Below the pieces are notes generated by a model that saw nothing but the letters and a program-made list of their open reading frames with translations, was not told the DNA's origin and ran no database searches. The position numbers were made by a program, and so were the translations under genes. From Tepidibacter aestuarii (GTDB lineage: Bacteria > Bacillota > Clostridia > Peptostreptococcales > Peptostreptococcaceae): 64,000 nt of DNA. The stretch covers positions 2,418,001-2,482,000 of the forward strand of contig NZ_OW235315.1 of NCBI RefSeq assembly GCF_934924865.1, in the 5' to 3' direction. Shown here piece by piece: positions 12,087 through 64,000 of the stretch (position 1 is its first letter; each line of letters starts with the position of its first letter).

Positions 12087-13388
12087 ATGAACATTTGTGT
12101 AATAGGTGCTGGTTACGTAGGGCTTATAACGTCTGTATCATTTGCTAAAATGGGAAATAACGTAATCTGTGTTGAAAAAAATATAGAAAAAGTCGACAGT
12201 CTAAATAAAGGTATTCCAACTATATACGAAGAAGGTTTAAATGATTTATTAATTGAGTGTTTAGAAAAAGAAACTATAAGCTTTACAAATAATTTGGAAG
12301 ATAGCATAAAAAAATCTGATATTGTATTCATAGCTGTTGGAACTCCATCCCTTGACAACGGAGAAGTGGATATGAATCAAGTATATGAATGTATAAAAGA
12401 AATATCTAAGTATATAGATAGATATAAAATAATAGTAAACAAAAGCACTGTTCCCGTTGGCAGTCAAAAATATGTAAAAGATTTATTAATTAAAAATGGA
12501 GTATCTTGTGACAAATTTGATGTAGTATCTAATCCCGAATTTTTAAGAGAAGGAAAAGCTCTATACGATTTCTTTTATGGAGATAAGATAGTAATAGGAC
12601 ATGAATCTCAAAAGTCTAGAAATATAATGAATTTATTATATAAACCATTCAATATACAGACTATATTCACATCTCCAGAAACTGCTGAGCTTATAAAATA
12701 CGCTTCAAATGCATTTTTATCCACTAAAATATCATTTATAAATGAAGTTGCTAATTTGTGTAATAAAGTAGGCGCTGATATAGATACAGTATCTATGGCC
12801 CTAGGACTTGATAAAAGAATATCACCTGAATTCTTAAAACCAGGAATAGGATATGGTGGATCTTGTTTTCCAAAGGATACTGTAGGACTTATTTCAATCG
12901 GGGAAAAATACAACTGCCCATTTGAAATAGTAAAAAGTGCAGTTAGTGTAAACAACAAGCAAAGACTTATTCCAGTTGATATATTACTTGAAGAATACCA
13001 TGATATAAAAGATAAGACAATAACACTTTTAGGCCTTACATTCAAAAGTGGAACAGACGATATAAGAGAAGCTCCATCTTTATATATAATAGAAGAACTA
13101 TTAAAAAAAGGTGTAAAAATAAATGCATACGATCCTATGGTATCAGATGAGATAAAAGAAATATATCCAAATATAAACTATTTTAATAATATGAATGAAT
13201 CTATATTAGGATCAGAATGTATTATTATTTGTACAGATTGGGAAGAATTCAAAGATATTGATTTAGACTTTGTGAAGGATAATATGAAGGAAGCCTTTAT
13301 AATAGACGGAAGAAATATGTTGAGTTTAGATGAAGCTAAGAAAAGAAATATAAAGTATTACTCAATAGGTAAAGGATATACAAATTAA
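12087..13388 (+). CDS. ugd: UDP-glucose/UDP-ManNAc 6-dehydrogenase family
   Basis: 433 residues. Oxidises the C6 hydroxyl of a UDP-sugar to the uronic acid with two NAD+. The N-terminal Rossmann motif IGAGYVGL, substrate region NPEFLREG and the catalytic Cys motif GIGYGGSCFPKD (near residue 258) are all present. The GYGGSCFPKD form favours UDP-glucose over UDP-ManNAc, but this is inferred. ATG start after AAGGTGATC. Product could feed surface glycans made by the nearby glycosyltransferases and epimerase. Confidence 0.92.
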   Translation: MNICVIGAGYVGLITSVSFAKMGNNVICVEKNIEKVDSLNKGIPTIYEEGLNDLLIECLEKETISFTNNLEDSIKKSDIVFIAVGTPSLDNGEVDMNQVYECIKEISKYIDRYKIIVNKSTVPVGSQKYVKDLLIKNGVSCDKFDVVSNPEFLREGKALYDFFYGDKIVIGHESQKSRNIMNLLYKPFNIQTIFTSPETAELIKYASNAFLSTKISFINEVANLCNKVGADIDTVSMALGLDKRISPEFLKPGIGYGGSCFPKDTVGLISIGEKYNCPFEIVKSAVSVNNKQRLIPVDILLEEYHDIKDKTITLLGLTFKSGTDDIREAPSLYIIEELLKKGVKINAYDPMVSDEIKEIYPNINYFNNMNESILGSECIIICTDWEEFKDIDLDFVKDNMKEAFIIDGRNMLSLDEAKKRNIKYYSIGKGYTN

Positions 13389-51774: not shown

Positions 51775-51893
51775 GTCGATTTAAATTTTTCATAATTTTC
51801 TGAATGTCGAAATTTTATTATTTATTGCCTTATAATCCAATATATTGTAGAATTAGTATGTCAAATCTAATTATACTTAGGGGGTTTTTTATC

Positions 51894-52688
51894 TTGAATA
51901 TAGCATTAATTGGAGCTGGAATAGGCGGTAAAAATATTATACAAGCAATAAACGATACAGATTCTATAAATATTTCTTTAGTTATAGATAAAAATTTAGA
52001 TGCACCAGGCATAGTTCTTTGTAAAAGTTTAGGTATAGATTATTCTCAATCTATAGATGATTTAGATAATAAAAACATTGATTTAATAATAGAGGCTACT
52101 GGCAACAGTAATGTTGCTAAATTATTGCAAGAAAAATTCAGCCATAAATGTACTATAATAGATTCTACTGGTGCTCTTTTAGTAATGACTCTAGTAGATA
52201 GAAATGTAGATACTCTATCTCAACTTAATAACCATATTTCCATAATTAGAGATACTTCAAATATAGTAAAAACTGAGTTAGATGACATATCATCGTCAAT
52301 AGATGATATGCAGGGTATAAGCGATATACTTTTAGATTCTACTAAAACTTCTATAACTCATATACAAGATACTGACAAAATAATAAAATACGTAAACAAA
52401 ATAGCCCATCAAACTAAAATACTAGGTATAAATGCTACTATTGAAGCTGCAAGAGCCGGCCAAGCCGGAAAAGGATTCTCTGTAGTTGCAAATGAAGTTC
52501 AACAGTTAGCAACAAATAGCGAGGGGTTTGCTAAAGAAATTAATGAAATACTTGGAAAAATAACAGATGAGATAAAAACTATAACAGCTGAAGTAGACAA
52601 GCTAAAGAATCTTTCAAAATCTCAAACAGATTCTTCTAATAAAGTTCAAGTTGCTGTTGATAAGCTTATAAGTGAAACATCTATTTAA
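51894..52688 (+). CDS. Rossmann-fold domain fused to a chemoreceptor signalling domain
   Basis: 264 residues, soluble. Residues ~1-120: Rossmann domain with [12 protein letters not shown] and [20 protein letters not shown], like the NAD-binding half of homoserine dehydrogenase/DapB-type enzymes. Residues ~125-264: methyl-accepting chemotaxis helical hairpin with the tip [20 protein letters not shown] (near 180-199). No membrane segment. Probably a cytoplasmic receptor reading a nucleotide or redox cofactor for CheA/CheW; inferred. Start TTG 51894 after TAGGGGG; a TATAAT lies at 51831-51836. Confidence 0.82.
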
Positions 52689-52691
52689 ATA

Positions 52692-52723
52692 AAAAAATAC
52701 GCCATATCCATGGCGTATTTTTT
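52692..52723. terminator. Terminator between chemoreceptor and topoisomerase genes
   Basis: 14-bp perfect stem AAAAAATACGCCAT/ATGGCGTATTTTTT, 4-nt loop; convergent genes on both sides. Confidence 0.85.
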
Positions 52724-54794
52724 AATCCAATATTTTCACATCGGTCATATAGCTTCTCTTTCCAAGCTTTAAAACTTCTATCCCTTTAGAAGTTTTTGTT
52801 GATTGAAGCTCTATATCCTTAGTATTTATGACAGAAGCTTTTTTATTATTTTTATAAAGCTCTAATTTAACATCATCTTTTATATAAAGCATGCGAACTA
52901 GTTCTGACTTATCAGAATAAGCCTTTACAAGCTTTCTTCTATTAGTCTTAGTCTTATAATTTTCTATATGAGTTTTAGCTATCTTAGCATCCCTAAAACA
53001 ATAAAGCATATATCCTTCATAATTATTAGAAAGACACATATATATAATATTCTCATCTTCCTTTAGCTTTAATATATTAGTTAAATACTCACCTAAAGAA
53101 CTAGCCTTACAATCAGCAAGGTCATAAACTTTTAATTTATATAAATTCTGCTTATTTGAAAAAAGTAGAATTTCATCCTTATTATTAGCATCTATCTCTT
53201 GTATTATAAAGTCATCATCTTTCAATTTTTGCTCCGAAAAAGATCTAAGCGAAGCGAGAGATATCTTCTTAAAGTAATTCTCATTAGTTAAAAATAACTT
53301 GACATTATAGTCACTTATTAAATGTTCATCTTTTATTTCTTTTATATCATCATTGCTTATTATTTCAGTCTTTCTAGGTTTTTTGTATTTTTTAGAAACC
53401 TCTTTTAATTCTTTTATTATTATATTTTTTATTTTTTTATCACTTTTAATAGTTTCATTAAGATTTTCCAAATCAGACTGCAAAGTCTTTATATTATTTA
53501 GCTGTTTTAATATATATTCTTTATTTAAATTCCTAAGCTTTATTTCAGCTATATATTCTGCCTGAATTTTATCTATATTAAATCCTTTAATCAAGTTAGG
53601 TATAACTTCTTTATCTTCTTTAGTATTTCTAATTATATCAATAGCCTTATCTATATCAAGTAAAATTTTCTCAAGCCCTAATAGAAGATGTAATCTATCT
53701 GTCTTTTTCTCTATATCATATTGTAAATATCCCTTAATGCACTCTACTCTAAAATCAACCCATTCTCTTAGAACTGCCTTTATGCCTAATACCTTAGGTT
53801 GCCCATTTATTAACATATTAAAATTGCAAGAAAAACTATCTTCAAGAGTAGTCATCTTATAAAGCTTATGCATAAGCAAATCTACGTCCGTATTTCTTTT
53901 TAAATCCAAAGTAACCTTAAGACCATTTAAATCAGTCTCATCTCTAACATCTGATATTTCTTTAATTTTATTGTCTTTAACAAGATCTATTATTTTATCT
54001 ATTATAGTCTCTATATTAGTAGTATAAGGGATTTCATATACTTCTATACAGTTGTTCTTTTTATCATATCTATACTTAGCTCTTAATTTAAAGCTACCTC
54101 GTCCTGTTTCATATATCTTTTCCATTTGATCTTTTGAATATATTATATATCCACCCGTTGAAAAATCCGGAGCCTTTATATAATCACTTATATCCACATC
54201 TTTATTTTTAATATAATTAATAGTAGCACTACATACCTCTTCTAAGTTAAAACTACATATACTACTTGACATACCAACAGCGATACCTTGATTTGCATTT
54301 ACAAGTACATTAGGGTATGTTGTAGGCAAAAGTACAGGCTCTTTTAAAGTACCATCATAATTGTCTACAAATTTAACAGTATTTTTATCTATATCCTTAA
54401 AAATCTCCTTGCATAGATCATCTAATTTTACCTCTGTATATCTAGGTGCTGCAAAGCTCATATCTTTAGAATATTTTTTACCAAAGTTTCCCTTAGAATC
54501 TATAAACGGGTGAAGTAAAGAATCATTTCCTCTTGTCAATCTAACTAGAGTCTCATATATAGCCATATCACCATGGGGATTTAACTTCATAGTTTGTCCA
54601 ACAACATTTGCTGATTTTGTTTTATTGGAATTTAAAAGCCCCATTTTATACATAGTATATAAAAGCTTTCTATGACTTGGCTTAAAACCATCTATCTCTG
54701 GAATAGCTCTTGAAACTATTACGCTCATAGCATACGGCATATAATTTTCTTCTAGCGTTTCTGTAATTCTTTGTCTTTCTATATTTTCAACCAT
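52722..54794 (-). CDS. parC: Type IIA topoisomerase subunit A (ParC/GyrA-like)
   Basis: 690 residues, shorter than GyrA (~820) because the C-terminal beta-pinwheel is reduced. DNA-cleaving Tyr119 is in FAAPRYTEVKL. Breaks and rejoins DNA with the ATPase subunit encoded next upstream. In the stretch NPHGDMAIYETLVRL the residues matching E. coli GyrA Ser83 and Asp87 are Met77 and Glu81, and the usual HPHGD reads NPHGD. Probably a second, topo IV-like enzyme rather than the main gyrase. 15 nt after its partner. Confidence 0.88.
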   Translation of the reverse strand: MVENIERQRITETLEENYMPYAMSVIVSRAIPEIDGFKPSHRKLLYTMYKMGLLNSNKTKSANVVGQTMKLNPHGDMAIYETLVRLTRGNDSLLHPFIDSKGNFGKKYSKDMSFAAPRYTEVKLDDLCKEIFKDIDKNTVKFVDNYDGTLKEPVLLPTTYPNVLVNANQGIAVGMSSSICSFNLEEVCSATINYIKNKDVDISDYIKAPDFSTGGYIIYSKDQMEKIYETGRGSFKLRAKYRYDKKNNCIEVYEIPYTTNIETIIDKIIDLVKDNKIKEISDVRDETDLNGLKVTLDLKRNTDVDLLMHKLYKMTTLEDSFSCNFNMLINGQPKVLGIKAVLREWVDFRVECIKGYLQYDIEKKTDRLHLLLGLEKILLDIDKAIDIIRNTKEDKEVIPNLIKGFNIDKIQAEYIAEIKLRNLNKEYILKQLNNIKTLQSDLENLNETIKSDKKIKNIIIKELKEVSKKYKKPRKTEIISNDDIKEIKDEHLISDYNVKLFLTNENYFKKISLASLRSFSEQKLKDDDFIIQEIDANNKDEILLFSNKQNLYKLKVYDLADCKASSLGEYLTNILKLKEDENIIYMCLSNNYEGYMLYCFRDAKIAKTHIENYKTKTNRRKLVKAYSDKSELVRMLYIKDDVKLELYKNNKKASVINTKDIELQSTKTSKGIEVLKLGKRSYMTDVKILD

Positions 54795-54809: not shown

Positions 54810-56780
54810 TTAACTAACATCTGTCATATCAATATACTTATGTCCATACTCAGCTATGAATCTTTTTCTTTCTTTAATATCGTCCCCTAGTAACATATCA
54901 AATACCTCTTGTGTTTTCTTAACATCTTCAGGAAGTACTTGAATAAGCCTTCTACTTTCAGGATTCATAGTAGTTTGCCACATCATCTCAGGCTCATTTT
55001 CACCAAGTCCTTTTGACCTTTGGATATTGTATTTACCCTTTATCTTAGATATTATACTATTTTTTTCCTTCTCATTATAAGCAAAATAAGTTTTTCTCGA
55101 AGTATTTATTTCAAATAATGGCGATTCAGCTATATATACTTTTCCTTTTTCTATTAGCATAGGTACTAGTCTATAAAGCATTGTAAGTATAAGCGTTCTA
55201 ATTTGGAAGCCATCTACATCTGCATCGGTACATATTATTACCTTATCCCAATTCAAATTATTCATATCAAAAGTATTCAAATCTTTATTATGCTTAGTCT
55301 CTATTTGAACACCACATCCAAGAACCTTTAATAAATCCGTTATTATATCACTTTTAAAGATTTTATCGTAATCTGCTTTAAGACAATTAAGTATCTTACC
55401 TCTAACAGGTATTATAGCTTGAAACTCTGAATCTCTTCCCATTTTACAAGAACCAAGTGCAGAATCTCCCTCAACTATGAATAATTCTCTCTTACTAATA
55501 TCCTTAGTTCTACAATCAACAAACTTTTTAACCCTGTTCTTTATATCTATGTTTCCACCTAACTGTTTTTTTATGTTTATTCTTGTTTTTTCAGCTCTTT
55601 CTCTACTTCTCTTATTAACTAAAACTTGTTCACATATTTTATTTGCTTCTAATTTATTCTCTATAAAATATATTTCTAGCTTTTCTTTTAACAAACTAGT
55701 TATAGCTTCTTGTATAAATTTATTAGTTATAGATTTTTTAGTTTGATTTTCATAACTTGTAATTGTAGAAAATGAATTTGTAACTAGTATTAAACTATCT
55801 GATATATCTACAAAACTTATCTTCTTTTCACCTTTGTTATACTTATTATTATCTTTTAAGTACTTATCTATCATATATATAAATGCGTTCTTAACAGCCT
55901 TATCAGGAGATCCTCCGTATTCTAAAAAACTCGAGTTGTGGTAGTATTCAATCAAATTGATTTCATTATTAAAACAAAATCCTACCTGAACCTTAAGCTT
56001 ATATTCGGGCTTGTCCTCTCTATCCCTACCTCGTCTTTCCTCTTCATATAATTGTACATTAGTAAATCCTTTTGAATCATTTACCTCATCTATATAATCT
56101 AAAATACCATTTTCATAACAGTATTCGTAGTTTTCATCAGTTTCTTCATCATAAATCTTGAATTTAAGATTTGAATTTACTATAGCCTGTTTTTTAATTA
56201 CATCCTTATAATAATCTATATCTATTTGTATATCTGTAAATACATCTATATCAGGCTTCCACTTTATTATAGTTCCAGTATGTTCATAATCACACTTTTC
56301 TTTTTTTAGGCCTCCTATATTCTCACCTTTTTCAAAATGAAGATCGTACTTATATCCGTCTCTATAAACAGTAACATCCATATATTCTGAACTATATTGA
56401 GTAGCACAGCTTCCAAGTCCATTAAGCCCTAAACTAAATTCATAATTTTCACCAGAATTATTTTTATACTTACCACCTGCATATAATTCACAAAATACTA
56501 GTTCCCAGTTGTATCTATCTTCTTTTTCATTATAATCAAGAGGTATTCCTCGACCTCTATCCTTTATTATTATAGAATTATCACTACATCGTGTTATCTC
56601 GATTATATTTCCAAAGCCTTCTCTTGCCTCATCTATAGAATTTGATAATATTTCAAACACAGAGTGCTTACATCCTTCAATACCATCAGAGCCAAATATT
56701 ACACTAGGTCTTAATCTAACTCTGTCTGCGCCCTTAAGAGATGATATACTATTATTTCCATAGTCGTTATTTTTGTTCAT
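54810..56780 (-). CDS. parE: Type IIA topoisomerase subunit B (ParE/GyrB-like)
   Basis: 656 residues. GHKL ATPase: EILSNSIDEAREGFGN (N-box), KDRGRGIPLDY, LGLNGLGSCATQYSSE; transducer domain; Toprim with FIVEGDSALGSCK (near 438) and CTDADVDGFQIRTL; C-terminal RSKGLGENEPEMMWQTTMNP. Supplies ATP-driven strand passage. Start ATG 56780 after GAAGGTGGTAG. Forms an operon with parC. Divergent from the 1618-residue fusion gene. Confidence 0.88.
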   Translation of the reverse strand: MNKNNDYGNNSISSLKGADRVRLRPSVIFGSDGIEGCKHSVFEILSNSIDEAREGFGNIIEITRCSDNSIIIKDRGRGIPLDYNEKEDRYNWELVFCELYAGGKYKNNSGENYEFSLGLNGLGSCATQYSSEYMDVTVYRDGYKYDLHFEKGENIGGLKKEKCDYEHTGTIIKWKPDIDVFTDIQIDIDYYKDVIKKQAIVNSNLKFKIYDEETDENYEYCYENGILDYIDEVNDSKGFTNVQLYEEERRGRDREDKPEYKLKVQVGFCFNNEINLIEYYHNSSFLEYGGSPDKAVKNAFIYMIDKYLKDNNKYNKGEKKISFVDISDSLILVTNSFSTITSYENQTKKSITNKFIQEAITSLLKEKLEIYFIENKLEANKICEQVLVNKRSRERAEKTRINIKKQLGGNIDIKNRVKKFVDCRTKDISKRELFIVEGDSALGSCKMGRDSEFQAIIPVRGKILNCLKADYDKIFKSDIITDLLKVLGCGVQIETKHNKDLNTFDMNNLNWDKVIICTDADVDGFQIRTLILTMLYRLVPMLIEKGKVYIAESPLFEINTSRKTYFAYNEKEKNSIISKIKGKYNIQRSKGLGENEPEMMWQTTMNPESRRLIQVLPEDVKKTQEVFDMLLGDDIKERKRFIAEYGHKYIDMTDVS

Positions 56781-56954
56781 ATATACTACCACCTTCTATT
56801 TTTGATTTCCTATTTTACACTACACAAAACCTATGTTCGTGTCAAGATTATTATTTTATATATATAATTTAAATTATATGAATTTTACTATATTTAGAGT
56901 TAATAATACATAGTATAATTATCTAAAATACATTTACCGAGAGGTGTTTAATTG

Positions 56955-59900
56955 ATGAAAAAAGATATTGTAATAGATATACACAAAGAAATACTAGATT
57001 CTGTATTAAATCTAGATCTTTCAGACAAGATTTCACATTTATTTTTAACAAATAATATAGATAATTATTTGTTTATAGCAAATATAAATAATATGATAAA
57101 AAATCGAGACTATACATGTAAATCTATATTAAACCTTTGCCAAAATATATTAGACAATATTCATCCAAATTTAAGTAAATCTGATTGGCTAAACTACACC
57201 TACAACATACTTTTATATAAATCTTTCCCAGACTCTGTAGAAATAGAGTTCCAAGAGATTTCCGAAAATATACAACTGGCTTGTATGATATATATAGAAA
57301 TTATCAGAGTATTTTGTAAATACGAAAAGTTATCTAATAATTCAAGCTTTTATATACAATATCCTCTAAATTTTTTAAATACTGACGAAATTAATTCACT
57401 TGATGCAAGATCAGAATACAAACGTTTTATAAAATATTTCAATAATGAATACATATATGAAATGATGAAGCTAAACCAAGAAATACTAAGTCACAACACA
57501 CTAGATCACATATGCGGAGTACACTATCTAGCACTTAGCATAGCACGACAAATTAAAAATATAGGTATTCCTATAGACTTAGGAAGAGTTTCAGGAAGTG
57601 CTGCTGGTCATGACTTAGGTAAATTTGGATGCAAAAAAAGCGAATCAAAACGAGTACCTTATCTGCATTATTATTATACCGATAAATGGTTTAAAAAACA
57701 CCACATAATGTATATAGGTCACATAGCTCTCAATCACTCTGTTTGGGATCTTGAGCTTGAAAATTTATCTATAGAGTCTCTTATCCTCATATACTGTGAT
57801 TTTCGTATTAAAAACAATGATAATTTCCAAATGAGCATATTCAGTTTAAAAGAGTCTTTTAATATTATACTTCAAAAACTAGATAATGTAGATGATTTAA
57901 AGAAAAAAAGATACTCAAAAGTCTATGCAAAACTTAAGGATTTTGAAGATTATTTAATTCATATAGGTGTAGATTTAGGTTATCAAGATATAAAATCTGA
58001 TAAACGTAAGCAATCATACTACTCTTTAATAAGTGGAAATGAGATAATAAGTAACCTAAAATATCTATCAGTTCATCACAATATAAATCTTATGCACAAG
58101 CTTAGAAGTGAACATTCTCTTAACTATATATTAGAACTTGCTAGAAGCGAAAATGACGGAGATAATATAAGAAAATATCTTCAAGTCTTTGAAGAATATT
58201 CAACTTATTTAACTCAAAACCAAAAAATAGTAATGCTAAAGTTTTTATATGAAAATCTGGTTCATCCTGATGAGGACATAAGAAAGCAATGTGCATATTT
58301 AATAGGTAATTTAATAGCAGTATTCGATGAAAATTACAGAAAAGAAATACCTAGTGATGTTAAATTAAATAATCCTCTTACTACTAGCTATTCTCTTTTA
58401 TGCGATTACTTGAATTTATTCATAAATCCAGATCATAAGATAATAGATATTCATCAAAAATGGATAGGATATAATATATCTGTAATGCTTTCTTCATTGT
58501 TTAGTAATTGTAATGAATCTCAGGTAAAAACCTATAAAAGCATAGTATTTAGCTATTATAAAAAATACTTCACTAAAAATAATAGCATTCAGCTTTATTT
58601 AATAAATGCAATGAAATATATACCTATATCAAATGATGATGTTATACTTGTAGATTATATATTATCAGCTCTAAATAGCAATAATGATAATATACGAATA
58701 TCCTCTTTAAACATAATTTATATACTTTTAAATAAAGAAAATAATAATTTCAGATCAAACAAAAATATAAACGAATTTTTTGAAACGAATACATTTAAAT
58801 CACAAATACCAGCAGAAAATTTCTTGAAATTTAAAATTTCAACCAAACTAAACTTGAAAGAAATTACTTTGAACAAGTACAAATCAATTTATTTGAGTGA
58901 TGAATCTAAAATAGGAAGTATATTTCTAAGTAACTTAAAAACTTTAACTCCTTGGATTATAAAAAAGATTAATATAGATTTATTATTCGAATACAATGTA
59001 AAAAATTTAAACAATATGGCTTATACAGCTATGCATTTTTGCAATCTTTTAAAGGTTAGCGGTATAGAAAGTGTGAGAAATGCTGCCGGAAAAAACATAA
59101 TAAAAATAATGCCTTACCTGTCACTTGAAGAAAGAAATGACATTGCAATAGAATTGCTTAGATCTCTTGAAATAGAAAAATATCAATTTAGTAAGTATAT
59201 ACCTGATTATTTAGGCGAAATTATACTTTATCTTCAACCGATTGAACTAGATGAAGTTATAGATGATTTTACTCAAAAGACAAAGCAATCAAATAATCAA
59301 ATAACATCTTTAGTTCTTGAAACCGTTGGAATAACTTTAAAGAATTATCCTAAATACAAGGATAGATTCTCTGAAGGTGGGGATATATCAAATAAAAGAC
59401 TTATAAAAATCTTAGGTATTTTGTTAAATGGACTTGCTCACTATGATTATCATGTTAAGCAAACTTCATTTAGAGTCATAGGAAGGCATATATTTGCATC
59501 TAAAAGACTTTATATGGAAAACAAAAAAGACATATTTAAAGTTATAGCTAAAAAACTCTTAGTTTTAATAGATTCAGTTGAGTCAAAAGATATCGTATTT
59601 TTTACTAATGCAGCAGCCTTAAATCAAGTATATAGATTTATAAATGAATATACATTTGCAAAGAAAGACATATCAATAAATGTTCCATCTAAAGTAGCTT
59701 TTTTCCCAGGAACTTTCGATCCTTTTTCTGTTGGTCACAAGGAAATTGCAAAAGCTATCCAAAATTTAGGATTTGAGGTTTATCTTTCTGTAGATGAGTT
59801 TTCTTGGTCCAAAAAGGCTCAACCTAATTTATTTAGACGAAATATAATAAATATGTCTATAGCTAATGAACCCAATATTTATTTATATCCCGACGATATA

Positions 59901-61811
59901 CCTGTTAATATTTCAAATCCTAAAGATTTAAAAATCCTTAGTGAAAGTTTTCCTGAATCAGATATTTCTATAGTAATAGGAAGTGATGTAATATTAAATG
60001 CATCAGCGTACAAAAAACCTGCTTCTGATTATTCTATACACAATTTTTCTCATATCATTTTCAAAAGAAATATCAAAGATTCTACTAGTCTTGATGATAC
60101 GCTTAAGTCTCAAGTTGATAAGCTAGAAAAAAATGCTATAATACTTAATTTACCTGCTCAATACGAAGATGTAAGTTCTAGCCAAATAAGAGATTATATA
60201 GACGAAGATAGAGATATTTCAGAGCTTTTAGATCCACTTGCACAAAAATATGTATACGAAAAAGGATTGTACCAAAGAGAACCTCAATACAAAGCGCTTA
60301 TGAAGACTATGTCTATAGATATAAATATAGCTACTGATATATCCAAGGATTTGATAGATAGGATAGATTTAGAGTTTTTTAAGGACAATACTTACAATCT
60401 CAAAAATCTTTATAATAATTTAAAAATGTACAATACCAAAATATTATACATACAAGACTCTAGTAAAAATAATAAAATATTAGGATTTTGCTTATTTCAT
60501 CAATTAAATTGGAGTATGCTTTATAAAGAATTTAAAAACCACACTACATCTGAATACGTACGCCAAAATGTAATAGGAAAAGCAGTTGTAATAGATTATA
60601 TATCTTGCATAAAAAACTATGAAATAGAAAATCTAGAGCAAATATTAATAACAGAAGTTCTATCTTTTTGTATCAAAAGAGACTATACTTATGCTATATA
60701 TAAAGACACTACTAACTACAATCTAACTGAATCCGCCCATTATACATTAAAGCTTCAGGGATTTTTAGAAGTATCAGATCAAGATGTAGATCCTATTTAT
60801 GTAGTCAATATGACAAATCCTTGTGTATTGACCTTAGATGTTGAATCATTTATAAAAGCTCCATTTGTAGATAGTCATAGGGTAAGAAAAACTATATTGA
60901 GATCTAGAAAAAAACTGCAAGAGGCACTCAGCTGTATTTACCCTGGAAGTCTTGTTTTATCATTTGATAAAACAGTTTTATATGAAAATCTAATACGAAA
61001 GGTATGTAAGGAAAATAAAGTACCACCTATAAGCTTAAAGCCTAGAAAATCAGGAGATTCTATGTGTGTTCCATTTGGTAACCTCTTAAAAGGAGTTGTT
61101 GTACCAAACACGGTTACCAAATCTCTTCATACGGAGAAATTATTCAATCCTAGCTTAACTGATTTTTCCATTGCTTCATACCCTTACTACCTAGACCTTC
61201 AAAGTCAGATTAAAACAATAGCATCATTCGATAGAAATGTAATTCTTATAGACGATATTTTGAATAAAGGATATAGAATAAAAGCTATTGATCCTATATT
61301 GAAAGAACAAAATGTAAACGTTAATAAAATTATAGTTGGTATACTATCAGGTAGAGGAAAAGAACTTATGGATATTCAAAATAGAGCTGTAGATTGTGCT
61401 TATTTTATTCCAAACCTAAGACTATGGTTTAATGAAAATGCTATGTATCCATTTATAGGAGGAGATACTCTATGGAGAGGCGTTGCTCCTAAAAGAAATC
61501 TAATTCCTTCTATTAATATGCTATTCCCTTATACCTCTTTGTCTTTTGTCAAAAATGCATCTAAATCGTCTTTATACGAACTATCAAGAGTTTGTATCCA
61601 AAACTCTATAGATATACTAAAATCTATAGAAAAAGAATACGAAAAGATACACAAGCGCAAGCTCACTTTAAATCACCTAGGAGAAGTCTTAAAATCGCCT
61701 AGATACCTTGATCATGGTAAAAATATGAATTATGATTTAAATTTAAATCCATCTCATTATTTAGAAAATGACTTAGAACTTTTAAAACGTATGGAAAATA
61801 TAATAGTTTAG
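56955..61811 (+). CDS. 1618-aa HD / helical-repeat / nucleotidyltransferase / PRTase-like fusion
   Basis: Unrecognised architecture. In order: helical region (1-170); HD phosphohydrolase-like domain (~175-300; HICGVHYLA, GHDLGKFG near 219, GHIALNHS near 256); long helical region resembling HEAT/ARM repeats (~350-900); nucleotidyltransferase of NadD/CoaD type (~912-1105; FFPGTFDPFSVGHKE at 916, VIGSDVIL, SSSQIRDYI near 1074); ~200 residues of possible acetyltransferase fold; PRTase-like segment (VILIDDILNKGYR near 1430) and a C-terminal helical region. Suggests nucleotide or NAD-type cofactor chemistry in one chain. Start ATG 56955 after GAGAGGTG (a TTG precedes it). First gene of a three-gene operon. 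Confidence 0.85.
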   Translation: MKKDIVIDIHKEILDSVLNLDLSDKISHLFLTNNIDNYLFIANINNMIKNRDYTCKSILNLCQNILDNIHPNLSKSDWLNYTYNILLYKSFPDSVEIEFQEISENIQLACMIYIEIIRVFCKYEKLSNNSSFYIQYPLNFLNTDEINSLDARSEYKRFIKYFNNEYIYEMMKLNQEILSHNTLDHICGVHYLALSIARQIKNIGIPIDLGRVSGSAAGHDLGKFGCKKSESKRVPYLHYYYTDKWFKKHHIMYIGHIALNHSVWDLELENLSIESLILIYCDFRIKNNDNFQMSIFSLKESFNIILQKLDNVDDLKKKRYSKVYAKLKDFEDYLIHIGVDLGYQDIKSDKRKQSYYSLISGNEIISNLKYLSVHHNINLMHKLRSEHSLNYILELARSENDGDNIRKYLQVFEEYSTYLTQNQKIVMLKFLYENLVHPDEDIRKQCAYLIGNLIAVFDENYRKEIPSDVKLNNPLTTSYSLLCDYLNLFINPDHKIIDIHQKWIGYNISVMLSSLFSNCNESQVKTYKSIVFSYYKKYFTKNNSIQLYLINAMKYIPISNDDVILVDYILSALNSNNDNIRISSLNIIYILLNKENNNFRSNKNINEFFETNTFKSQIPAENFLKFKISTKLNLKEITLNKYKSIYLSDESKIGSIFLSNLKTLTPWIIKKINIDLLFEYNVKNLNNMAYTAMHFCNLLKVSGIESVRNAAGKNIIKIMPYLSLEERNDIAIELLRSLEIEKYQFSKYIPDYLGEIILYLQPIELDEVIDDFTQKTKQSNNQITSLVLETVGITLKNYPKYKDRFSEGGDISNKRLIKILGILLNGLAHYDYHVKQTSFRVIGRHIFASKRLYMENKKDIFKVIAKKLLVLIDSVESKDIVFFTNAAALNQVYRFINEYTFAKKDISINVPSKVAFFPGTFDPFSVGHKEIAKAIQNLGFEVYLSVDEFSWSKKAQPNLFRRNIINMSIANEPNIYLYPDDIPVNISNPKDLKILSESFPESDISIVIGSDVILNASAYKKPASDYSIHNFSHIIFKRNIKDSTSLDDTLKSQVDKLEKNAIILNLPAQYEDVSSSQIRDYIDEDRDISELLDPLAQKYVYEKGLYQREPQYKALMKTMSIDINIATDISKDLIDRIDLEFFKDNTYNLKNLYNNLKMYNTKILYIQDSSKNNKILGFCLFHQLNWSMLYKEFKNHTTSEYVRQNVIGKAVVIDYISCIKNYEIENLEQILITEVLSFCIKRDYTYAIYKDTTNYNLTESAHYTLKLQGFLEVSDQDVDPIYVVNMTNPCVLTLDVESFIKAPFVDSHRVRKTILRSRKKLQEALSCIYPGSLVLSFDKTVLYENLIRKVCKENKVPPISLKPRKSGDSMCVPFGNLLKGVVVPNTVTKSLHTEKLFNPSLTDFSIASYPYYLDLQSQIKTIASFDRNVILIDDILNKGYRIKAIDPILKEQNVNVNKIIVGILSGRGKELMDIQNRAVDCAYFIPNLRLWFNENAMYPFIGGDTLWRGVAPKRNLIPSINMLFPYTSLSFVKNASKSSLYELSRVCIQNSIDILKSIEKEYEKIHKRKLTLNHLGEVLKSPRYLDHGKNMNYDLNLNPSHYLENDLELLKRMENIIV

Positions 61812-61827
61812 AATTGGAGATGATTAA

Positions 61828-63081
61828 ATGTTTTTTTATAAATTAGATGATAAAGTTCTATTCTCAAACTTTAATTACGATTTAGATGAAATATCAGAAA
61901 CTGAGGCAATGAACAACGAAGATACCATATATTTTTTAAATAAATTAAATCCATTAAATTCAAGAAGAATGTTTTGTGTTTCACATCCAAGTTTGCTTTA
62001 TTTAGAAGAAGAAAATACAAATCTAATCGATATATGTGATGATTTTAAGTGTAATACTCCTTTATGGATAATGGATAAAATAAACGATAGAAAGGTTATG
62101 GGTATAAATACAAATTACCTTAATTGGAAAGATTCAATAAATTATACTTTACCTAAATCGTGGAGAGTTAATATAGTAGGCCTTGGTGATGTAGGATCTA
62201 CTCTTTTAATAGGTCTTAAGCTTTTAGGTGGCAATACTATAAACTGCATAGGTTTATATGGATTAAATAAATCTAATCTTCAAAGGCTAGAGTATGAAAT
62301 GAACCAAATAATAGATCCATTTTCCGATGAGTCTATGCCACAAATAAGCGTAGTAGAAGAAAATGAACTGTTTGACTGCGATATATTCGTATTTTGCGCA
62401 TCAAAAGGAATACCTCCTGTTGGATCAAATGTATCTGATGTTAGAATGATTCAATTTGAAGAAAATGCAAAAATAGTAAGTCATTACGCTAGAAAAGCTC
62501 GTAATTCTTGCTTTAAGGGAATATTTGCAGTGGTATCAGACCCTGTAGATCCACTTTGCAAGGTTTCCTTTATATCTAGTAATAAGGATGAAAATGGAAA
62601 TTTAGACTTTCTTGGTCTAAGCTCAGATCAAATTAGAGGTTATGGCCTTGGAGTTATGAATGCCAGAGCTATATATTACTCTAAAAAAGATTCTAATACA
62701 GAAAAATATATAAATGAAGGCAGAGCCTTTGGACCTCACGGAAAAGGTCTTATAATAGCTAATAGTATAAATAATTACAATGAAGAATTATCTCTAAATC
62801 TTACTGATAAAGCTATAAATGCAAATATAGACGTTAGAAATACCGGATTCAAGCCTTATATTGCTCCAGCTTTATCATCAGGAGCCCTGTCACTTATAAA
62901 TACTATGAAAGGCAATTGGAACTATAGCTCAACTTATACAGGAAATGTATTTATGGGTGCTAAGAACAGATTGACACAATCTGGAGTCGAAATAGAAATG
63001 CTACATCTTCCAGAACAATTGTTAAATAGAATAAAAAATACTTATAAAGATTTAAATGATATAGACTGCTTCAAATTCTAA
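61828..63081 (+). CDS. MDH/LDH-like NAD-binding protein with N-terminal extension
   Basis: 417 residues. Residues ~1-108 are an unknown domain. Then a Rossmann domain NIVGLGDVGSTLLIGL (near 113), FAVVSDPVDPLC (counterpart of NPVD in malate/lactate dehydrogenases), RGYGLGVMNARAIYY and GPHGKGLIIANS, which keeps the catalytic-type His of G-x-HG. Likely a 2-hydroxyacid or related oxidoreductase; substrate unknown. 16 nt after the fusion gene, so a partner in the same process. GGAGATG site. Confidence 0.78.
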   Translation: MFFYKLDDKVLFSNFNYDLDEISETEAMNNEDTIYFLNKLNPLNSRRMFCVSHPSLLYLEEENTNLIDICDDFKCNTPLWIMDKINDRKVMGINTNYLNWKDSINYTLPKSWRVNIVGLGDVGSTLLIGLKLLGGNTINCIGLYGLNKSNLQRLEYEMNQIIDPFSDESMPQISVVEENELFDCDIFVFCASKGIPPVGSNVSDVRMIQFEENAKIVSHYARKARNSCFKGIFAVVSDPVDPLCKVSFISSNKDENGNLDFLGLSSDQIRGYGLGVMNARAIYYSKKDSNTEKYINEGRAFGPHGKGLIIANSINNYNEELSLNLTDKAINANIDVRNTGFKPYIAPALSSGALSLINTMKGNWNYSSTYTGNVFMGAKNRLTQSGVEIEMLHLPEQLLNRIKNTYKDLNDIDCFKF

Positions 63082-63105
63082 TATTTAATCGAGGGAAGTG
63101 TTATT

Positions 63106-64000
63106 ATGAATACTCTTTATATTGTAATGCCAAGTGCATCACAAGAATTCAAATCATTTATACATAGTCTAACTGACGATTTGAATACTATATTTATTGA
63201 AGAAGAATCAAACTTACCCGATCTTAAAAATAAAAAAATATTATTTGCATTAGAGCTTGATGATTGTGGGTTTAACAATACTTTATTCTCTATAATATCT
63301 AAATTATATAAAAGAGGAAAAGACTCTTTAAATAACTCAAGTGCAATATTAATAGTTCAAAGTCCAAATGAATTATACACAAAGAGTTTATCCCAAAATA
63401 TAATATTTCTACTAAATCAAATAGGGTGTTCATTTATAGGGCACCCCCTAGTTGAAGCTACTAAAGACTTAAATAACTTCATGACATGGAAGAAAAGATT
63501 AAACCTTGAGCTTGATAATATATATTTTCAGCGATCTAAAAAACTAATTAAAAATTTTATGAAGAAACACTACGAGCGTATAGAAAATCCGAATATACTA
63601 GCACTTCACGCTAGCTCTTATGAGACGTCTAATACATTGATGCTTTGGAATATGGTAAAAGAAAATCTAACTAACTGCACAATAAACGAATTTCACGTTG
63701 AAAATGGAACAATAACAGATTGTAAGGGATGTTCTTATATAGCATGTAAACACTACAGCGAAAATGACAGTTGTTTTTACGGAGGAACTATAACTAAAGA
63801 GCTCTTACCTAGTATAAAAAAAGCTGATTGTATAATATGGATATGCCCAAACTACAACGATGCTATATCTGCTAAGCTTATGGCAGTTATAAATAGACTT
63901 ACTGTTCTTTATAGAAAAATGAAATTTTACGATAAAAGTATATTTTCTATAATAGTTTCTGGAAACTCAGGAAGTGACTCAGTAGTAAAACAACTTATAG
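63106..64000 (+). CDS. Flavodoxin-like/Fe-S flavoprotein, runs off the window
   Basis: At least 298 codons, open at the window end. Starts MNTLYIVMPSASQEFK after GAGGGAAG. Residues ~1-155 are an unknown domain; from ~165 the fold resembles NADPH-dependent FMN reductases (ILALHASSYETSNTLMLWNMV), with a Cys cluster C-x2-C-x4-C-x8-C (DCKGCSYIACKHYSENDSC) and IIWICPNYNDAISAKL as in iron-sulfur flavoproteins. Third gene of the operon, 24 nt after the MDH-like gene. Would supply electrons to the pathway. Confidence 0.72.
   Translation, partial: MNTLYIVMPSASQEFKSFIHSLTDDLNTIFIEEESNLPDLKNKKILFALELDDCGFNNTLFSIISKLYKRGKDSLNNSSAILIVQSPNELYTKSLSQNIIFLLNQIGCSFIGHPLVEATKDLNNFMTWKKRLNLELDNIYFQRSKKLIKNFMKKHYERIENPNILALHASSYETSNTLMLWNMVKENLTNCTINEFHVENGTITDCKGCSYIACKHYSENDSCFYGGTITKELLPSIKKADCIIWICPNYNDAISAKLMAVINRLTVLYRKMKFYDKSIFSIIVSGNSGSDSVVKQLI

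Follow-up and report, generated by a model that had tools for sequence, protein, structure and literature searches.

A three-gene operon around a giant HD-HEAT-nucleotidyltransferase-phosphoribosyltransferase-like fusion protein in Tepidibacter and other Firmicutes, a candidate pathway for a nucleotide-type cofactor

Introduction

Among the closest described systems to the operon treated here are those in which the nicotinate-nucleotide adenylyltransferase NadD stands next to, or is fused with, an HD-domain hydrolase. A proofreading role was reported for the HD domain of a NadD-YqeK fusion (PMC9426524), and the ligand set H...HD...H...H...D was described for the Ap4A hydrolase YqeK (PMC8177086). 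Like NadD-YqeK, the giant protein encoded by the operon unites in one chain a nucleotidyltransferase of the NadD fold with an HD hydrolase that has this ligand set. However, it differs in the domain order HD-HEAT-nucleotidyltransferase, in the additional GNAT-like and phosphoribosyltransferase (PRTase)-like domains and in the presence of two redox partner genes. Furthermore, the giant scores below the NadD cut-off, its HD domain is not clearly a YqeK domain and the host possesses its own nadD and yqeK. The DVU_1551-type NTP transferases with HD domain (NF045665) are presumably also nucleotidyltransferase-HD fusions, with a nucleotidyltransferase part that we take to differ in kind from that of the giant; the likeness is confined to the HD region and the window copy reaches 15.2 of the 315 bits required.

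No part of the operon proteins within the window passes the cut-off of a curated single-function family in Pfam or NCBIfam; the cut-offs of the general domains PF01467, PF00056 and PF03358 are passed. The names given in the databases are automatic and read nicotinate-nicotinamide nucleotide adenylyltransferase, cytidyltransferase or lactate/malate family dehydrogenase. Among the papers listed by searches of the open PMC full-text literature, none describes the operon. We regard the operon as a new system assembled from known folds; counting any NadD-HD fusion as one kind would make it a form thereof.

Operon structure and genomic context

The host genome of 3.67 Mb in two contigs is Tepidibacter-like and clostridial. 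The window, i.e., the whole stretch of 64,000 nucleotides that was analyzed, carries the operon at its end (Table 1). A preliminary description, made from the sequence alone, had proposed a three-gene operon around a giant fusion with the partner genes 16-24 nt downstream, and the gene coordinates confirmed this arrangement of a 1618-aa giant, a protein of the lactate/malate dehydrogenase (LDH/MDH) superfamily and a four-Cys flavoprotein, all encoded on the plus strand. The giant starts with ATG, preceded by an AGAGGTG site ending 8 nt before it; a TTG three bases upstream is a possible alternative start. Three bases past the third stop codon a terminator-like hairpin of 20 pairs is followed by a T run (L002:12157-12201, stop codon ending at 12153), so that the operon looks closed.

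Table 1. Features of the operon (window coordinates) and the basis of their assignment.
Feature	Coordinates	Strand	Basis
Giant protein, 1618 aa: N-terminal region, HD, HEAT, NadD-like nucleotidyltransferase, GNAT-like, type I PRTase-like, helical tail	56955..61811	+	profiles; predicted structure of part
HD domain, ~residues 151-345	57405..57989	+	H185, H219-D220, H238, H261 and D282 invariant (47/47); sequence basis
HEAT-repeat scaffold, ~residues 360-905	58032..59669	+	single PF02985 match at residues 428-456, E 7.2e-5; extent inferred
NadD-fold nucleotidyltransferase, ~residues 910-1110; GTFDPFSxxH, SS(T/S)xIR	59682..60284	+	profiles, predicted structure, alignment
GNAT-fold domain, ~residues 1119-1287, without [QR]xxGx[GA] acetyl-CoA loop	60309..60815	+	predicted structure; motif scan
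Type I phosphoribosyltransferase-fold domain, ~residues 1289-1493, motif VILIDDILNKGYR	60819..61433	+	predicted structure, profiles, alignment
LDH/MDH-superfamily protein, 417 aa, extra N-terminal region of ~110 aa	61828..63081	+	PF00056, 5.6e-9; catalytic residues 44/44
Flavoprotein (FMN_red), four invariant Cys	63106..64000; gene runs on to 64152 beyond the window (L002:11107-12153)	+	PF03358, 1.8e-17 on the in-window part

A promoter scan was uninformative (56 matches compared to a shuffle mean of 53.7). In the 501 bases around the operon start no structured RNA was detected at E up to 1, and in 16 loci, the own one included, a search for upstream riboswitches and structured RNAs at gathering thresholds returned nothing beyond tRNAs, a tmRNA and a single glycine riboswitch, the latter in L012 on the opposite strand and about 5.3 kb upstream of the giant. 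No recurrent fourth gene was seen in the locus maps, and inspection of the neighbor genes by eye in selected loci showed housekeeping functions. In the window a gyrase/topoisomerase IV A and B subunit pair (52722-54794 and 54810-56792, both on the minus strand) is encoded divergently from the operon; ORFs of similar size (690-694 and 660 aa) occupy this position in L061, L062 and L063. Next to this pair a 294-aa protein (51804-52688, plus strand) combines a Rossmann-type dehydrogenase-like N-terminal half (GFO_IDH_MocA 5.7e-5, DapB_N 5.4e-5) with an MCP signaling domain (5.7e-24) and is possibly, judged from these domains, a soluble redox or metabolite sensor.

Domain architecture of the giant protein

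For the giant, the preliminary description had listed an HD hydrolase, a long helical-repeat scaffold, a NadD/CoaD-type nucleotidyltransferase and a PRPP-binding-like motif. The HD hydrolase is supported by profiles and was complemented by its ligand set, the scaffold turned out to be of the HEAT type as judged from the PF02985 match, and the PRPP-binding-like motif lies in a type I PRTase fold of the predicted structure. The nucleotidyltransferase fold was retained together with its NadD-like character, the NadD profile match (TIGR00482) having an E of 6.9e-13; the CoaD-type reading was rejected as its match is weaker (9.5e-5). A GNAT fold between the nucleotidyltransferase and the PRTase domain, present in the predicted structure, had been overlooked.

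The ligand set H...HD...H...H...D of YqeK was found in the HD domain of all 47 giants compared. This set is not exclusive to YqeK, and in hhalign the likeness between the HD domain and the product of the host yqeK (chosen by eye) is weak (16.6% probability, E 0.0015, 55 columns). In an alignment of 33 of the 42 distinct loci then available, the commonest NCBIfam match of the HD part was NF045665, which 18 of the 33 sequences matched with an E of 0.01 or lower (4.3e-7 in the best case). A sequence search of the HD region against the PDB gave a marginal match only (1xx7_A, 0.034).

Structure predictions covered residues 880-1618 and 1285-1618 of the giant, and the model of the former contains a NadD-type nucleotidyltransferase fold; the fold lists name some families only, hence the absence of a family from such a list does not exclude it. 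A BFVD search with this model returned mostly acetyltransferases and some nucleotidyltransferases and added no information. The NadD-like part aligns to the NadD of the host itself (E 2.8e-11) and reaches 49.1 bits with TIGR00482, below the cut-off of 112.45 bits. NadD enzymes are characterized by the motifs (H/T)xGH and SSTxIR. In the (H/T)xGH region of the giants the second His is invariant (47/47), the first position is occupied by S (40 sequences) or T (7) and the Gly is found in 20 of 47, while SSxxIR is present in all 44 giants with linked partners. The GNAT acetyl-CoA loop [QR]xxGx[GA] is absent from the region in 42 of the 44 rows, which together represent 42 distinct loci, and the two matches lie elsewhere as judged by eye.

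Residues 1289-1493 carry, according to the model, a type I PRTase fold. In the PRPP motif the first Asp is conserved in 46, the second Asp in 42 and the Gly in 46 of 47 sequences, and the usual Thr positions differ. Typical PRTases possess a loop of the T-T-G-x-T kind. From the type I enzymes OPRT, APRT, UPRT and HPRT the domain differs by its H/N-K-G-Y-R loop, by a family-specific NTVTKxLHTEK segment and by its fusion near the end of a 1618-aa chain, and the window domain stays below the curated NCBIfam and PF00156 cut-offs (for PF00156 16.4 of 26.3 bits, E 0.0056). Among 35 of the 42 distinct loci then available, PF00156 matches 18 with an E of 0.1 or lower (0.0012 in the best case), and a sequence search against the PDB gave a marginal match only (4rqa_A, 0.045). 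In a distant relative (L013:13799-14800) the PRTase domain passes the cut-off of the Pfam family PRTase-CE (27.3 of 27 bits, 4.1e-6), a term that is absent from the open PMC full-text literature.

The partner proteins

The second and third genes were expected to encode an MDH/LDH-like oxidoreductase and a Cys-containing flavoprotein, and both assignments stood. The LDH-like protein carries the Pfam LDH N-terminal domain, and a PDB search with its profile retrieves chains of LDH and MDH enzymes, with a best E of 5.2e-6. It shares with the L-lactate/malate dehydrogenases the glycine-rich Rossmann motif and R206, R280 and H304, invariant in 44 of 44 sequences and presumably placed at LDH Arg109, Arg171 and His195. 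It differs by the extra N-terminal region, an altered substrate loop and the Asp168 position, which is N, H, Y or once R in this family, and with 28.5 bits it stays below the curated LDH cut-off (NF000824, 339 bits). In L096, L099 and L116 the protein comprises 318-328 aa and has no counterpart of the ~110 N-terminal residues; that region is therefore not needed everywhere. The host carries another LDH-family match (E 1.2e-4).

The flavoprotein shares the FMN_red domain and a conserved Cys cluster with NADPH-dependent FMN reductases and iron-sulfur flavoproteins, and it differs in the Cys spacing CX2CX4CX8C (C206, C209, C214 and C223, invariant in 44/44) and an N-terminal extension of ~160 aa. 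For this N-terminus being a repeat of the FMN_red part there is a hint only (hhalign probability 3.6%, E 0.012), and a sequence search of the flavoprotein against the PDB gave no match at E up to 0.1.

Distribution and conservation of gene order

Among the matches listed from other genomes the nearest relatives of the giant are found in Tepidibacter (91% to T. mesophilus), and all four genomes searched within the genus have it. In the family survey (71 genomes) the giant and the flavoprotein gave strong matches in the identical 13 genomes. In the class survey (391 genomes), in which we drew the cut-off for a strong giant match at better than 1e-90, the giant was found in 32 genomes and the LDH-like gene in 31, each of which also has the giant; the genome with a giant and without the LDH-like gene (G181) is 84% complete, and its contig breaks off within the giant gene. 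Apart from extra giant pieces or copies in the same genomes, all further matches to the giant with an E of 0.001 or lower were short and confined to the nucleotidyltransferase region, as would be expected of ordinary nucleotidyltransferases. In the phylum survey (398 genomes) the LDH-like protein was matched at better than 1e-70 in eight genomes, i.e., that of the window, G067 from the same class and six that are more remotely related, of which five have the full trio and one has a contig beginning just before the LDH-like gene. These counts show that the system is widespread but sparse.

Fifty loci were mapped, of which 48 are distinct (L008/L070 and L011/L084 are the same places and were counted once). 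The trio is adjacent and in order in 41 of the 48, with frequent 4-nt overlaps between genes 2 and 3. Two of these 41, L075 and L087, have a gap of more than 120 nt between the giant and the LDH-like gene. Of the other loci, in L070 and L071 the LDH-like and flavoprotein genes lie 5-6 kb downstream on the same strand, contig ends cut L074 and L113, and L082, L091 and L098 are second giant copies without partner genes. Across 43 loci the divergences correlate with r 0.82 for giant and LDH-like protein, 0.94 for giant and flavoprotein and 0.84 for LDH-like protein and flavoprotein, values that include shared ancestry and constitute no test of interaction. By these comparisons the three genes are evidently inherited together. 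Two findings had been named in the preliminary description as speaking against it, namely predicted structures without nucleotidyltransferase or PRTase fold and homologues occurring widely without the partners; the models contain both folds, and the partners are nearly always kept, the exceptions being L082, L091, L098, L070 and L071.

In a FastTree phylogeny with midpoint root the three partnerless copies group as a single clade (support 1.0). Each of them retains the complete HD ligand set and the PRPP motif but has a damaged SSTxIR, mildly so in L082, and L091 and L098 also show changes in the GTFDP stretch. Nucleotidyltransferase activity seems to be required in giants accompanied by the two redox genes, which would tie its product to the partner enzymes. 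This contrast is suggestive only since one clade represents one evolutionary event.

Possible functions of the operon

The preliminary description had postulated a pathway that builds, adenylates and reduces a nucleotide-type cofactor. This idea fits the domain anatomy and is partly supported. We tentatively favor the operon being a pathway, complete in itself, to a nucleotide-type (dinucleotide) cofactor of non-canonical kind that would differ from housekeeping NAD, a reading that is quite possible, if somewhat short of probable. In its favor are the co-occurrence, conserved order and correlated divergence of the three genes, the full or almost full conservation of catalytic residues in the HD, nucleotidyltransferase and LDH-like parts, the kinship of the nucleotidyltransferase with NadD in a host that has separate NAD genes, and the contrast with the partnerless copies. 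The PRTase-like domain would join a base to PRPP or bind a 5'-phosphoribosyl compound, and the nucleotidyltransferase would adenylylate the resulting nucleotide. The HEAT and GNAT-like parts may keep substrates in place, and redox steps on, or with, the product may fall to the LDH-like enzyme and the Cys-flavoprotein. The proofreading reported for an HD domain fused to NadD gives the HD domain of the giant a possible role (PMC9426524): in analogy to the NadD-YqeK fusion it could hydrolyze wrong or spent phosphoanhydrides. Several points speak against a cofactor pathway: the PRPP motif departs from the usual one, including its second Asp, the operon lacks an enzyme to make a novel base, its surroundings show no recurrent fourth gene, the HD domain is only weakly similar to YqeK, the contrast with the paralogues stems from a single clade, and the PDB sequence matches are marginal for the HD and PRTase regions and absent for the flavoprotein.

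The main rival is NAD(P) salvage and damage control, according to which the giant would produce or repair nucleotides of the usual NAD type, the PRTase and nucleotidyltransferase forming a salvage line with the HD domain as proofreader, and the oxidoreductases handle damaged or over-reduced forms. The nucleotidyltransferase is indeed NadD-like, and the NadD-YqeK fusion of a minimal cell was reported to act on NaAD analogues (PMC9426524). However, the host is already equipped with nadC, with a NAPRTase-family gene whose partial profile match exceeds the cut-off, and with an ordinary nadD over its cut-off adjoining yqeK (identified by eye), so that a second line to plain NAD is not obviously needed and ordinary NAD is probably not the product. 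The separate nadD also rules out the giant as the only NadD of the host. In addition, the known nicotinate and quinolinate PRTases are of type II, as opposed to the type I fold of the giant, and the link to the LDH-like enzyme and the Cys-flavoprotein is left unexplained. We consider this rival fairly unlikely.

The cofactor pathway can be phrased in a more far-reaching form: as a single chain, the giant would make, adenylylate and proofread a new NAD-like dinucleotide that the LDH-like enzyme and the Cys-flavoprotein reduce or use, and anaerobic Firmicutes would possess a new system built on a redox cofactor. In this specific form the proposal is unlikely. Such a system would have been overlooked because the giant is automatically named as a nicotinate-nucleotide adenylyltransferase.

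Alternatively, the PRTase-, nucleotidyltransferase- and GNAT-like domains could bind effectors on the HEAT scaffold of a nucleotide-sensing or signaling complex, in which the HD domain hydrolyzes or tunes the signal and the redox proteins report or set the redox state. The altered PRPP loop, the GNAT fold without acetyl-CoA loop and the partnerless paralogues, with their damaged nucleotidyltransferase signature and intact HD and PRPP motifs, are consistent with this, and PyrR and PurR are examples of regulators built on a type I PRTase fold. Nevertheless, a pure sensor would need neither the SSxxIR kept in every partner-linked giant nor the invariant LDH catalytic residues, which makes a sensor distinctly unlikely.

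A role in macromolecule modification (RNA or protein) or in defense is very improbable: systems of these kinds can contain HEAT scaffolds and GNAT folds, and L013 matches PRTase-CE, but PHROGs, PADLOC, viral contigs (LDH-like query only) and plasmids yielded nothing convincing for a defense or mobile origin, PADLOC (2023 version) giving chance-level matches (best E 0.008 over three proteins), the viral contigs no relative and the plasmid collection a single 2.6-Mb record resembling a chromosome, and all genomes searched in the genus have the giant.

As the three-gene set of the favored cofactor pathway is small and complete, the question of its product is directly testable. Even under NAD repair the giant would be, to our knowledge, the most elaborate NadD-HD fusion. 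If the cofactor reading is true, many proteins labeled as NadD-type enzymes or cytidyltransferases belong to an undescribed cofactor or nucleotide pathway of anaerobes. A database search with residues 880-1618, in which scoring was limited to the 7991 candidates with the most words in common (7997 in a second search of this kind), returned 4506 proteins at E up to 0.001, and the best 120 of these 4506 cover at least 98% of the 739-residue query.
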